Shown one piece after another: positions 35,021 through 41,511 of a stretch of DNA of 64,000 nucleotides. Positions within the stretch are counted from its first letter, which is position 1. Each line of letters starts with the position of its first letter. The position numbers and the translations under genes were made by a program. The notes under the pieces are model-generated. The model ran no database searches, was not told the DNA's origin, and was given only the letters and a program-made list of their open reading frames with translations. The DNA comes from Desulfamplus sp. (lineage in GTDB: Bacteria > Desulfobacterota > Desulfobacteria > Desulfobacterales > Desulfobacteraceae), in contig JADFZQ010000007.1 in NCBI GenBank assembly GCA_015232455.1, positions 1 to 64,000 on the forward strand, read 5' to 3'.

Positions 35021-38000
35021 ATGACAAGTAACGTAAACGGTTCAGTGGTTGTTGTGGGAGGGGGCATATCAGGAATGCTGTCTGCTCTTGATCTCGCCAA
35101 CTCAGGCTATTATGTTTACCTTGTGGAAAAAGGTACATCTGTCGGCGGGGCAATGTCCCAGCTTGATAAGACCTTTCCCACAAATGACTGTGCAATGTGA
35201 ATTATCTCACCAACACTGGTCGAGGTCGGCCGGCATTTAAACATTGAACTTTTAACATTATCAAATATTGTTGACATCAAAGGAGAAGCTGGGAATTTTC
35301 AGATTGATGTCATTAAAAAACCAAGATACGTAAATACTGATCTATGCGTTGGGTGCGGTGCTTGTGCGGAAAAGTGTCCAAGCAAAGATACAGATACTTA
35401 CAACATGGGGCTTACAACCCGTAAAGCCATTTATGTTGAGTATCCTCAGGCAGTTCCATTAAAATATGCTATCAATCCTGAAAAGTGTCTTAAACTTACT
35501 AAGGATAAGTGCGGAAACTGCGAAGAGGTCTGCCCTGCAAAGGCAATTGACTATAAGCAGAAAGAGGAGCGGATAACACTCAATGCTGGTGCTGTTATCT
35601 TTTCTCCGGGTTTTAAACCTTATGATCCAAAGATTTTTGATAACTACCAATATTCACATCTGCCAAATGTTGTAACATCAATGGAGTTTGAGAGGATTCT
35701 TTCAGCTTCAGGTCCATCACAAGGTCATATAATGACCCTTCCAAAAGTTCCAGCACACCCAACAACCAAGAAGGACAAACTTCTTGCTGAACGCAAAAAA
35801 GATCCAAAAAAGATTGCGTGGTTTCAGTGTGTCGGCTCAAGGGATATGAACAAGTGCGACAACAAGTATTGCTCTTCTGTCTGCTGTATGTATGCAATCA
35901 AAGAGGCAGTAATTGCCAAAGAACATGCAGGAGATGATCTTGATTGTGCCATATTCTATATGGATATGAGAACTCATGGCAAAGAGTTTGAAAGATATTA
36001 CAACCGTGCCAAAGAAGCTGGTGTCAGATTTGTAAGAACAAAGGTTCACACAATTAATCCTTTGCATGACTCTGATGATTTAAGTCTCCGTTATGTATCT
36101 GACACAGGCGAAATTGTTGAAGAAATTTTTGATATGGTTGTTCTCTCTGTTGGTCTTCAGATTGCTCCTGAGACAATAGAACTTGCCAAAAATCTTGGAA
36201 TTGAGCTGACTTCTGGTAATTTTGCACAGACCTCAAGTTTCTCACCTGTTGAAACAAGTAGAAAAGGGATTTTTGTTTCTGGTGCTTTCCAAGGACCAAA
36301 AGATATTCCACAAGCAGTTGTTGATTCAAGTGCTGCTGCTGCTGGAGCTGGTTCTCTTTTAAGTTCTGTAAGAGATACCATGACCAAAAAGGCAGAAAGC
36401 ACTCCTGAGACAAATATTGTTGGAGAGCGTCCAAGAATCGGTGTTTTTGTATGTAGATGCGGAACTAACATTGCTGGAGTTGTTGATGTTCCAGCAGTAA
36501 GAGACTATGCGGCAAATCTTCCTTTTGTGGAATATTATACTGATAACCTCTATTCATGCTCACAAGATTCACAAGACACCATAGCAAAGCTGATTAAAGA
36601 GCATAACTTAAACAGAATTGTCGTTGCAGCATGTACGCCAAAGACACATGAGCCGCTTTTTCAAGAGACTCTTATGAAAGCTGGTCTTAACAAATATCTG
36701 TTTGAGATGACCAATATAAGAAATCAAGACTCTTGGGTTCACAAGAACAATCCTGAACTTGCAACTAAAAAGGCAAAAGACCTTGTTCGTATGGCAGTTT
36801 CAAAAGTTGCCTTGATGGAGCCGTTAAAAGAGGTTGAACTTAAAGTTAATCAAGCTGCAATGGTTATTGGAGCAGGGCTTGCAGGTTTAACAGCCGCCAA
36901 AAATCTTGCTGATCAAGGTTATGAAGTCCACGTTATTGAGAAAGATTCAAAAATAGGTGGACAGGCAAATAACCTATATCACACTTATAAAGGCGAAAAT
37001 ATCCAAAAACAGCTTCTTGAGATAAAGTCAGATATAGCGAACAACTCTAAAATACATCTCCATTTGAACACATCAGTTGAAGATGTTCAGGGGTTTGTTG
37101 GAAATTTCAAATCAACTCTTCTTTGCAACGGTCAAACTTCAGAGATTGAGCATGGAGTGTCTGTTATTGCTACAGGTGGTGCAGGATTAAAGCCTTCTGA
37201 ATATTGCTATGGTCAAGATGATAGAATTCTCACAAGCCTTGATCTTGATAAAATGCTTATGGCAGATGACCAGAATCTTAAAGCAATGAAATCTGCTGTA
37301 TTTATCCAGTGTGTCGGCTCAAGAGATTCTGAACGCCCATACTGTTCAAGAGTTTGCTGCACCCACTCAATTGACAATGCTCTTGAATTAAAGAAGATAA
37401 ATCCAGAGATGGATGTCTATGTTCTCTACAGAGACATAAGAGCTTATGGAGAGAGAGAATACAACTACCAGAAGGCAAGAGAGGCTGGAGTCATCTTTAT
37501 CCGCTACAGCCTTGATAACAAACCGAAAGTTGAACTTAAAGATGGCAAAGTTCTTGTAACTGTAATTGATCATGTTCTTCAGATGCCGCTTGAAATTGAT
37601 GCAGATATATTGACTCTTGCATCTGCAATTGTTCCAAATAGAGACGAGAAGATCGCGAACTTCTTTAAAGTGCCTTTAAATGAAGATGGATTCTTTGTTG
37701 AGAGACACGCAAAACTTGGACCTTCAGAATTTGCAACTGATGGTGTTTTCTTGTGCGGACTTGCCCACTATCCAAAGCCGATTGATGAGTCAATTGCTCA
37801 TGGAATGGCTGCATCTTCCCGTGCTGTAACTTTGCTTGCACGCGAGACAGTTAAAACAAGCGGCAATGTTGCCTTAGCTAATCCAAATAAGTGCAGTTCA
37901 TGCGGTGTATGCGTATCTGTTTGTCCATATTCAGCACCATCGTTTGTTAAAGAGGGTCGTTTTGCAGGCAAGGCTGAAATCAATCCTGTGCTTTGTAAAG

Positions 38001-38107
38001 GTTGTGGTCTGTGCGTTGCATCTTGTAGATCAGGAGCCTTGCATCTTAAAGGGTTTGACACAAATCAGATATTTGCTCAAATAACTGCTCTTGTTGATGC
38101 GGCATAA
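35021..38107 (+). CDS. hdrA: Double-module HdrA selenoprotein (UGA at 35198-35200 read as Sec60)
   Basis: HdrA is the flavin-bifurcating subunit of heterodisulfide-reductase-type complexes. Translation from ATG 35021 (AGGAG 7 bases upstream) crosses an in-frame TGA at codon 60 and continues to 38107, giving 1028 residues, far longer than the ~650 of standard HdrA. Module 1 (1-450): FAD motif [16 protein letters not shown], ferredoxin [11 protein letters not shown] (109-119) and a second cluster (156-171), CVGSRD...YCSSVCC. Module 2 (471-1028): [12 protein letters not shown], second FAD site GAGLAG (near 617), CVGSRD...YCSRVCC, C-terminal ferredoxins. Module 2 lacks the NDCxxC motif. The Sec site equals a cluster-ligand cysteine that is Sec in some methanogen and deltaproteobacterial homologues. 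Heads the flx operon. Confidence 0.93.
35198..35233 (+). promoter_or_regulatory. hdrA UGA-Sec codon and SECIS-like hairpin
   Basis: UGA at 35198-35200 is followed by a 6-bp stem, CTGGTC (35216-35221) with GGCCGG (35228-35233), two G-U pairs included, enclosing the loop GAGGTC. The loop contains the GGUC seen in the E. coli fdhF SECIS apical loop. UGA-to-loop spacing is 21 bases, inside the range reported for bacterial SECIS elements. Confidence 0.85.
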
Positions 38108-38129
38108 AAATCAAGGAGAATTTTATATT

Positions 38130-40654: not shown

Positions 40655-40665
40655 AAGGAGGAAAA

Positions 40666-41511
40666 ATGGTAAACCCTTATATGCCCTATCCGGTTCGCAT
40701 TGATGAGATTGAGATTGCAACTGAGGATAAGTCGCTTAAAACATTCAAGTTTGTCTTTTTAAATAAAGAAGATGAAGAAAAATTTGCCCATAAAGCAGGG
40801 CAGTTTGCAGAACTTTCAATTCCGGGTCAAGGTGAAATTCCAATTGGAATAGCATCTTCTCCAACAGAAAAAGGGTTTGTTAAGTTTACTGTATTTAAAA
40901 CTGGAGTTGTAACATCTTACCTTCACAACATGAAGGTTGGAGATATTATGGGTATCAGAGGTCCACTTGGAAACTGGTATCCTTGGGATCTGCTTGAAGG
41001 CAAAAATGTTGTAATTATCGGTGGTGGTTTTGCCTTTACAACACTTAGAGCTTCAATAGTTTATATGCTTGATCCTGCTAATAGATCAAAGTTTGGAAAG
41101 ATTGATGTTGTTTATGGTGCCCGCTCTCCCGGAATGCTTCTCTACAGAGATGAGCTGTATGAGTGGGAAAAAAGAGACGATATAAACATGCACATCACAG
41201 TTGATTCAACAACTGATCCAAGCTGGAAATACAATGTTGGATTTGTTCCTACAATAGTTGGACAAAAAGCACCAAAAGCTGATCCAAATACTTTTGCTAT
41301 TGTCTGCGGTCCTCCAATAATGATCAAGTTTACCCAGCCTGCTCTTGAGTCATTAGGATATGGTCAGAATCAGATTATCATGTCTCTTGAAAACCGTATG
41401 AAATGCGGAATCGGCATGTGCGGAAGATGCAATATTGGAAAAGAGCTTGTGTGCAAAGATGGTCCTGTATTTACTCTTGAAGAGCTGAATAAAACGCCGA
41501 GAGAGTATTGA
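40666..41511 (+). CDS. FlxA-like FAD/NAD(P)-binding reductase subunit
   Basis: The 281-residue ferredoxin-NADP-reductase-type protein has an FAD part (FAELSIPGQGEIPIGIASSP), an NAD(P) part (NVVIIGGGFAFTTLRASI; FAIVCGPPIMIKF) and a C-terminal [2Fe-2S] Cys set (MKCGIGMCGRCNIGKELVCKDGPVF). It resembles HydG/AsrB and the FlxA subunit that oxidises NAD(P)H. ATG 40666 follows AAGGAGG. It is the last gene of the hdrA-mvhD-flx operon; a terminator follows. Confidence 0.87.
   Translation: MVNPYMPYPVRIDEIEIATEDKSLKTFKFVFLNKEDEEKFAHKAGQFAELSIPGQGEIPIGIASSPTEKGFVKFTVFKTGVVTSYLHNMKVGDIMGIRGPLGNWYPWDLLEGKNVVIIGGGFAFTTLRASIVYMLDPANRSKFGKIDVVYGARSPGMLLYRDELYEWEKRDDINMHITVDSTTDPSWKYNVGFVPTIVGQKAPKADPNTFAIVCGPPIMIKFTQPALESLGYGQNQIIMSLENRMKCGIGMCGRCNIGKELVCKDGPVFTLEELNKTPREY

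Follow-up and report, generated by a model that had tools for sequence, protein, structure and literature searches.

Can an Hdr operon that has two in-frame UGA codons and no genes for HdrB or HdrC encode an electron-transferring enzyme, and to which acceptor would such an enzyme pass its electrons? This question is raised by hdrA, mvhD and three genes of FlxB, FlxC and FlxA type at positions 35021-41511 of a 64,000-nucleotide stretch of Desulfamplus sp. (assembly GCA_015232455.1, contig JADFZQ010000007.1, positions 1-64,000 of the forward strand; hereafter the window, which lies on contig C77 of genome G000, 4.35 Mb and 98.5% complete). As judged from sequence, both HdrA and MvhD are selenoproteins, each with its UGA in frame at a position held by cysteine (Cys) in homologues. 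For the five genes together, we believe that the most plausible explanation, with a probability of about 0.6, is a selenium form of the Flx-Hdr enzyme, in which NAD(P)H would drive electron bifurcation to ferredoxin and DsrC and HdrBC would be supplied in trans.

Selenocysteine codons and the hairpins behind them

HdrA and MvhD are taken for selenoproteins because the UGA of each falls on the Cys of homologues, the frame continues behind it, a hairpin follows it, and the genome holds selA, selB, selC and selD. An earlier note on this DNA had placed a UGA at a Cys or selenocysteine (Sec) position of each gene, and the placement proved right: U60 of HdrA falls on residue 197 of chain 9sfi_A, a non-standard one (X), and U68 of MvhD on a Cys of 5odc_D, and in both proteins the homology extends past the UGA. 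The Sec machinery, which the note had proposed to look for, was found with every component above its cut-off (SelA, 594 bits; SelB, 369 bits; SelD, 363 bits; tRNA-Sec, 74 bits). The selD gene (G000:C77:143397-144323, locus L017) has an in-frame UGA of its own. Under translation table 11 without recoding, hdrA is reduced to an open reading frame of 900 amino acids (aa; 35405-38107) and mvhD to one of 80 aa (38091-38333), so that a Sec-blind annotation would split both genes, as had been foreseen, and one that stops at the UGA hides the two selenoproteins.

The relatives used for comparison were 76 loci obtained by scanning named genomes for likeness to HdrA, and they do not form a neutral sample. 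Besides the window, 65 of these 76 have a UGA at the HdrA position and 63 have one at the MvhD position (among rows with enough sequence); the UGA-bearing relatives include metagenome-assembled genomes (MAGs) of Desulfamplus that are 90-98% identical in HdrA. A sequencing error is unlikely because the UGA recurs in relatives, these MAGs among them, and we rejected both error and pseudogene since the open frame behind the UGA recurs with it in the 65 (HdrA) and 63 (MvhD) cases. In the same genome, an MvhD paralogue at about 1267-1750 of locus L133 (G000:C25:1-14000) has an in-frame UGA in a CNYU motif near its N-terminus which, with the SGUHPGEC motif of the window MvhD, makes two Sec positions in one family.

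A hairpin resembling a selenocysteine insertion sequence (SECIS) follows each UGA at nearly equal spacing, as the earlier note had described, although the distances from UGA to loop are 22 nt (hdrA) and 23 nt (mvhD) and not 21 and 22. Folding energy backs the first of them, which starts 15 nt past the UGA (z -2.19; 5 of 200 shuffles fold equally well), but not the second, which starts 16 nt past it (z -0.81; 44 of 200 shuffles equal, non-significant), and Rfam gave no match reaching the gathering threshold. We consider codon freezing in relatives to be stronger evidence than folding energy. It was measured in 64 rows including the window, with five loci left out and a UGA in 59 (HdrA) and 63 (MvhD). 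At silent sites, HdrA codons +6 to +11 (counted from the UGA) hardly vary, taking ranks 1-3 within degeneracy classes of 74 to 169 invariant columns; of the MvhD codons, +6, +7, +8, +10 and +11 each come first among 21 to 29 in silent-site conservation, and a single codon is also used at +9, where the residue is kept in only 80%. Codons closer to the UGA are likewise constrained (HdrA +1 and +2; MvhD +4), and most of those past the hairpins vary normally.

Eight Cys-coding paralogues provided a control. In these the six HdrA hairpin residues are kept but their codons vary. The control for MvhD is weaker, with codon 74 split 5/3, codons 75 and 79 split 7/1, codon 78 fixed as GGC and not GGT, and residue 76 different. 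One compensatory pair change was seen by eye in the mvhD stem of L125. Codon freezing thus led us to reject chance hairpins for both genes, with the Cys control behind it in HdrA and the weaker one in MvhD.

Subunits of the operon and the dsrC neighbourhood

The genes are summarized in Table 1, and their family matches agree with the earlier description of a double-module HdrA and of an iron-sulfur (Fe-S)/flavin module of NAD(P)H type behind mvhD. The top NCBIfam model for HdrA is NF040770 (953 bits; cut-off 1100), profile and structure-chain matches give it the flavin adenine dinucleotide (FAD) and Fe-S domains that FlxABCD-HdrABC requires, and among solved structures it matches HdrA of the methanogen type (best 9sfi_A, 1e-182). 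MvhD matches PF02662 (181 bits). The FlxB-like protein is an Fe-S protein with a weak FrhB-type N-terminal part (21.4 bits; cut-off 22) that matches two stretches of FdhB from formate dehydrogenase-Hdr complexes, the FdhB part between them being unmatched, and the FlxC-like protein matches sulfhydrogenase beta among solved structures. Both are Fe-S proteins of the expected kind, but the names FlxB and FlxC are borrowed from the earlier note by analogy, the comparison having been made without the Desulfovibrio vulgaris Flx proteins.

Table 1. Features of the operon (positions in the window)
Feature	Position	Strand	Details
hdrA, double-module (two thioredoxin-reductase-like FAD modules)	35021..38107	+	1028 aa, Sec60
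In-frame UGA, Sec60 of HdrA	35198..35200	+	alignment to homologues, relatives
hdrA SECIS-like hairpin	35216..35233	+	7 bp, loop AGGU (4 nt); silent sites frozen in relatives
mvhD/flxD	38130..38555	+	141 aa, Sec68
In-frame UGA, Sec68 of MvhD	38331..38333	+	alignment to homologues, relatives
mvhD SECIS-like hairpin	38350..38366	+	7 bp, loop GGA (3 nt); silent sites frozen; energy non-significant
FlxB-like Fe-S protein	38567..39418	+	283 aa; FdhB-like stretches
FlxC-like Fe-S protein	39584..40654	+	356 aa; nearest AsrA and sulfhydrogenase beta (NCBIfam), below cut-offs
FlxA-like FAD/NAD(P)-binding protein, DHODB-type Fe-S domain	40666..41511	+	281 aa; nearest AsrB and sulfhydrogenase gamma (NCBIfam), below cut-offs

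The order HdrA-MvhD-FlxB-FlxC-FlxA is recurrent in the relatives. FlxA is present in 57 of the 76 loci, and some of those lacking it end at a contig edge. The Sec/Sec form without HdrB/HdrC recurs across the Desulfobacterales, in several families of the order. Complete FlxA genes followed by 450 nt or more of sequence were available in 49 loci. In 48 of them a dsrC gene is found on the same strand, 122-306 nt downstream of FlxA, and the DsrC of these relatives ends in ACKMAGLPKPTGCV or in all but the last residue thereof. The 78 genomes of the window's family gave FlxA in 61, DsrC in 71 and a dsrC gene 126-256 nt behind FlxA in 47. The earlier note had called the gene combination unusual; with Flx genes and an adjoining dsrC in these 47 genomes and the same order in other families of the order, this cannot be upheld.

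An HdrA-like plus MvhD-like pair with Sec is also found as BamEF of class II benzoyl-CoA reductase. We rejected this identity for the window pair, as the operon holds Flx-type genes only and no other Bam subunit; no Bam-family search was made beyond the operon. Between the FlxB-like and FlxC-like genes lies a gap of 165 nt (39419-39583) with a repeat-like look; a 21-nt piece of this gap (39499-39519) has no further copy in the window within 3 mismatches.

HdrCB genes, the proposed electron path and its alternatives

The absence of HdrB/HdrC had been noticed at the outset, and it holds for the locus: of 17 CCG (HdrB-type) matches in the genome none is in the window, the nearest being at C77:77556. 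No close HdrCB was found beside the operon in the examined flanks of relatives; among Desulfobacterota, L055 and L080 showed weak matches (26-33%) on the opposite strand, and short ones occurred in the archaeal L119 and in L127 of Anaerolineales. An overlooked HdrBC beside the operon was rejected on these grounds for the window and, within those flanks, for the relatives. Elsewhere the genome has HdrCB in one Cys copy and two Sec genes.

The Cys copy belongs to a second operon, on contig C22, consisting of an HdrCB fusion, HdrA (Cys), MvhD (Cys) and three Flx genes, and its FlxA is 83% identical to that of the window. All eight HdrCB-linked operons examined (that on C22 and seven from family genomes) are Cys/Cys, whereas 43 of the 49 dsrC-linked loci are Sec/Sec, the others being five with a Sec MvhD and the N-terminal part of HdrA out of sight and one Sec/Cys (L104). 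The eight HdrCB-linked copies are a lower bound (at least 8 of the 60 genomes with sorted FlxA entries, part of the HdrCB rows having been compared); in G027 the FlxA copy is of the HdrCB-linked type only. A tree of 85 HdrA rows, built with a quick method, unites the HdrCB-linked proteins in a single clade (support 100) and places the window HdrA outside it, among the dsrC-linked proteins (smallest sets with Shimodaira-Hasegawa-like approximate likelihood ratio support of 97-100). Because the HdrCB-linked rows form one clade, the contrast may reflect a single evolutionary event. There are exceptions to it: L146, a second copy in G023, is Cys/Cys, lacks an adjoining dsrC and has HdrCB on the opposite strand; in L147 and L148, both Sec/Sec, dsrC is located elsewhere; and L149 (G004) is Sec/Sec with dsrC about 17 kb off, its HdrA branching outside both clades.

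Three builds of HdrA occur among the window and its relatives, namely the continuous one of the window, one with a GltD-type insert (L099) and a split one (L077:4619-10910), in which a Sec mini-protein of about 130 aa, a NuoE-like and a NuoF-like protein precede an HdrA with a NuoG-like N-terminal part. NuoF-like genes are present in 20 of the 76 loci. The Nuo-type split hdrA looks like a second possible entry for NADH grafted into HdrA.

One of the two Sec HdrCB genes is a solo fusion at C77:76669-77991 (L135:6669-7991), 12.7 kb past the window, and is the third gene for an Hdr selenoprotein on this contig. Its in-frame UGA lies in the motif NTEUGH (NTECGH in the C22 copy), and past it, by eye, a 7-bp hairpin with a three-base loop is possible at the spacing seen in mvhD. 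Its best scores (HmcF, 143 bits; TmcB, 133; DsrK, 102) are all far below the cut-offs. No hdrA adjoins it in any of the nine loci viewed, one of which (L157) carries a tandem pair of HdrCB; a helicase gene, presumably HrpA-like, is upstream in all nine and a ParA-like gene downstream in six. The solo form (at least 77% identity and one UGA) is present in 40 of the 78 family genomes, one of them partial. Another Sec HdrCB gene was seen in L132 (G000:C11:36000-54000), on one side of a gene for an HdrL-type protein of 1591 aa that has an MvhD-like gene on its other side; beside the latter is what we take, from the look of the sequences, to be a MetV/MetF pair.

The flavin sites of HdrA are compatible with bifurcation. 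Module 1 of the window protein keeps the bifurcation pair as E224/K294, and module 2 is without it (D743/D785). The E/K pair of module 1 is present in all eight HdrCB-linked rows and in all 69 other rows counted; in module 2, D743 is found in all 77, and residue 785 is mostly E, D or H in the rows that are not HdrCB-linked (66 of 69) and A, L, I, T or S in those that are. The remaining eight of the 85 tree rows also have E and K in module 1, with a variable module 2. In the available text of PMC12054007, the corresponding flavin pair (E356/K409 in Methanothermococcus thermolithotrophicus numbering) marks bifurcating HdrA proteins.

We propose that the five proteins would form a complex in which NAD(P)H is oxidized at FlxA and the electrons would run through the Fe-S proteins FlxC and then FlxB to MvhD (Sec68), and from there to HdrA (Sec60), at the bifurcating FAD of its module 1. 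This flavin would split the pair, one electron going to ferredoxin and the other into a high-potential branch ending at DsrC. The alternative acceptor suggested in the earlier note would in the simplest case be DsrC: its gene directly follows the operon in 48 of the 49 relatives, and DsrC of D. vulgaris interacts with Flx-Hdr (PMC10504309). HdrB and HdrC are missing at the locus only and not from the genome. The HdrBC contacting DsrC would be supplied in trans, most likely by the solo Sec HdrCB, a candidate partner, or else by the Cys HdrCB of the C22 operon.

A number of observations weigh against this proposal. As a dedicated partner, the solo Sec HdrCB was considered and found weakly supported: it occurs together with the dsrC-linked operon in 31 genomes, the operon alone is in 16, the solo gene alone in nine (G001 and G039 have it without the operon) and neither in 22, a positive but loose co-occurrence (Fisher p 0.0024, uncorrected for kinship), and in genus g8, where operon and dsrC are both present, no close solo HdrCB occurs. 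In five loci (L056, L101, L119, L125 and L127) HdrA is present but the Flx set is not, although there is room for it, and L089, the sole exception among the 49, has the Flx operon without dsrC. The match for rnfC, a gene that bears on the fate of reduced ferredoxin, is below its cut-off. Gene neighbourhood is in any case no proof of contact, and in L100 a promoter-like site in the gap between FlxA and dsrC (14464-14492; 10 of 12 matches, 2 sites against 1.3 expected) means that dsrC may be transcribed on its own; no terminator-like site was found in L100:14300-15200.

A further objection comes from the window's own genus, where FlxA is patchy (found in 4 of 10 genomes, in one of the 4 by a fragment; several of the 10 are incomplete) and where dsrC, found in 7 of the 10, adjoins FlxA in none. 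Other genes follow the window operon, and the one dsrC found in the genome is on contig C3. Of the genes that follow dsrC in relatives, the AhbA-like siroheme decarboxylase gene and four neighbours, presumably an ABC transporter, have homologues within 10 kb of it. In view of these shared neighbours, we read the separation of operon and dsrC as a rearrangement in the window lineage. The AhbA-like gene is inverted relative to dsrC in the window genome, and the nitrilase gene of the relatives' dsrC neighbourhood had no match.

Part of the same evidence would fit other explanations. It is possible, if doubtful, that the window and C22 operons are selenium-responsive isozymes with one function, both relying on the C22 HdrCB, and that the cell turns to the Sec form under ample selenium. 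This account overlaps with the selenium Flx-Hdr enzyme proposed above, and it draws on the presence in one genome of two operons with the same subunits and closely similar FlxA proteins, for which Vhu/Vhc of Methanococcus voltae offers a precedent (PMC2702500). Yet the HdrCB-linked copy was counted in at least 8 of 60 genomes, that copy is all that G027 has, and the two HdrA clades are distinct, the dsrC link belonging to one of them. We think it unlikely that dsrC is a mere chromosomal neighbour and the enzyme an NAD(P)H- and ferredoxin-linked Hdr module of carbon metabolism with another acceptor. The distance between operon and dsrC in the window genome and the promoter-like site in L100 would suit such a module, but order and spacing are kept in the 47 family genomes and also in other families of the order, and the interaction reported for D. 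vulgaris (PMC10504309) points the other way.

We give still less credit to an enzyme independent of HdrBC, in which the Sec/Sec complex would itself reduce the DsrC trisulfide with no CCG protein taking part, the site being either Sec60 or the Fe-S centres of FlxB or FlxC. The conserved dsrC neighbour, the lack of a close HdrCB beside the operons, the opposite Sec and Cys forms of dsrC-linked and HdrCB-linked loci and the case of genus g8 all speak for it. The known complexes serving DsrC, however, contain a CCG or DsrK-type protein as far as described in the available parts of PMC10553843 and PMC10504309; some HdrCB is present in 77 of the 78 family genomes; and by homology both Sec residues stand at conserved Cys positions of HdrA and MvhD and at no known substrate site. 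Slighter again is the chance that the complex reduces the trisulfide (or takes electrons from DsrC) directly without a CCG protein of HdrB or DsrK type, selenium in both relay subunits replacing HdrBC, and so forms a soluble bifurcating entry of NAD(P)H into sulfite reduction in the Desulfobacterales.

If the selenium form of Flx-Hdr with HdrBC in trans is what the operon encodes, the conserved Sec/Sec set with its dsrC would represent a testable soluble NADH route to sulfite reduction in complete-oxidising Desulfobacterales, from NAD(P)H to ferredoxin and DsrC. The Sec/Sec operons without HdrBC, their Cys/Cys counterparts linked to HdrCB and the solo Sec HdrCB would also permit tests of the role of selenium in electron bifurcation.

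Comparison with known systems

The FlxABCD-HdrABC enzyme of D. vulgaris was reportedly described by Ramos et al. in 2015. The window locus resembles it, in so far as the sources available describe it, in having HdrA, an MvhD-like subunit, three Flx-type subunits and a probable DsrC partner, and differs from it in the lack of HdrB/HdrC, in the double-module HdrA, in the Sec of HdrA and MvhD and in the dsrC adjoining the operon in relatives; the build of HdrA and the residues of the D. vulgaris proteins lay outside the comparison.

Desulfobacterium autotrophicum HRM2 has nine hdr loci, with Sec in HdrA1, HdrA2, HdrL1, HdrL3, HdrD4 and four MvhD proteins, and its HdrL1-MvhD cluster is followed by genes called dsrA, dsrB and dsrC, for which a path from NADH to sulfite was proposed in 2009 (PMC2702500, available text). 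This is the same idea in one genome, based as here on a Sec Hdr protein, mvhD and dsrC; the HdrL proteins of HRM2 bear an inserted glutamate-synthase-type domain, as in L099 and unlike the window HdrA (PMC2702500). We infer that the genes called dsrA and dsrB are Flx genes of AsrA/AsrB type. In Desulfococcus multivorans, according to PMC5109826, one HdrA and one MvhD contain Sec and dsrC is remote from the two hdrA genes; a Sec BamE gene is also named there. By its gene number, the Sec mvhD of this species may adjoin hdrA2-hdrBC, which would break the Sec/HdrCB pattern. Association of nuoEFG with hdrA and mvhD appears in PMC4046663.

A conserved link of Sec HdrA-MvhD-Flx with dsrC was not found in our literature search, judged from titles and the abstracts shown. 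Nor did that search turn up in print how widely dsrC is linked to such operons, how Sec and Cys forms part according to their HdrCB linkage, or a solo Sec HdrCB proposed as a candidate partner. Type II HdrA of methane-metabolising archaea has a second thioredoxin-reductase domain, as the window HdrA does, but compared with the archaeal type II and III proteins described in the available text of PMC12054007 the window HdrA is bacterial, contains Sec, is linked to Flx genes and, in relatives, to dsrC. The two selenoprotein families of the operon, Sec HdrA and Sec MvhD/VhuD, are also described in PMC13188914 and frequently share an operon; there they pair with a hydrogenase (frhA-frhD-hdrA), whereas the window pair stands with an NAD(P)H module. 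We regard the locus as a selenoprotein pair, recognized by its sequence, within a known kind of enzyme, and this variant as common in the group.

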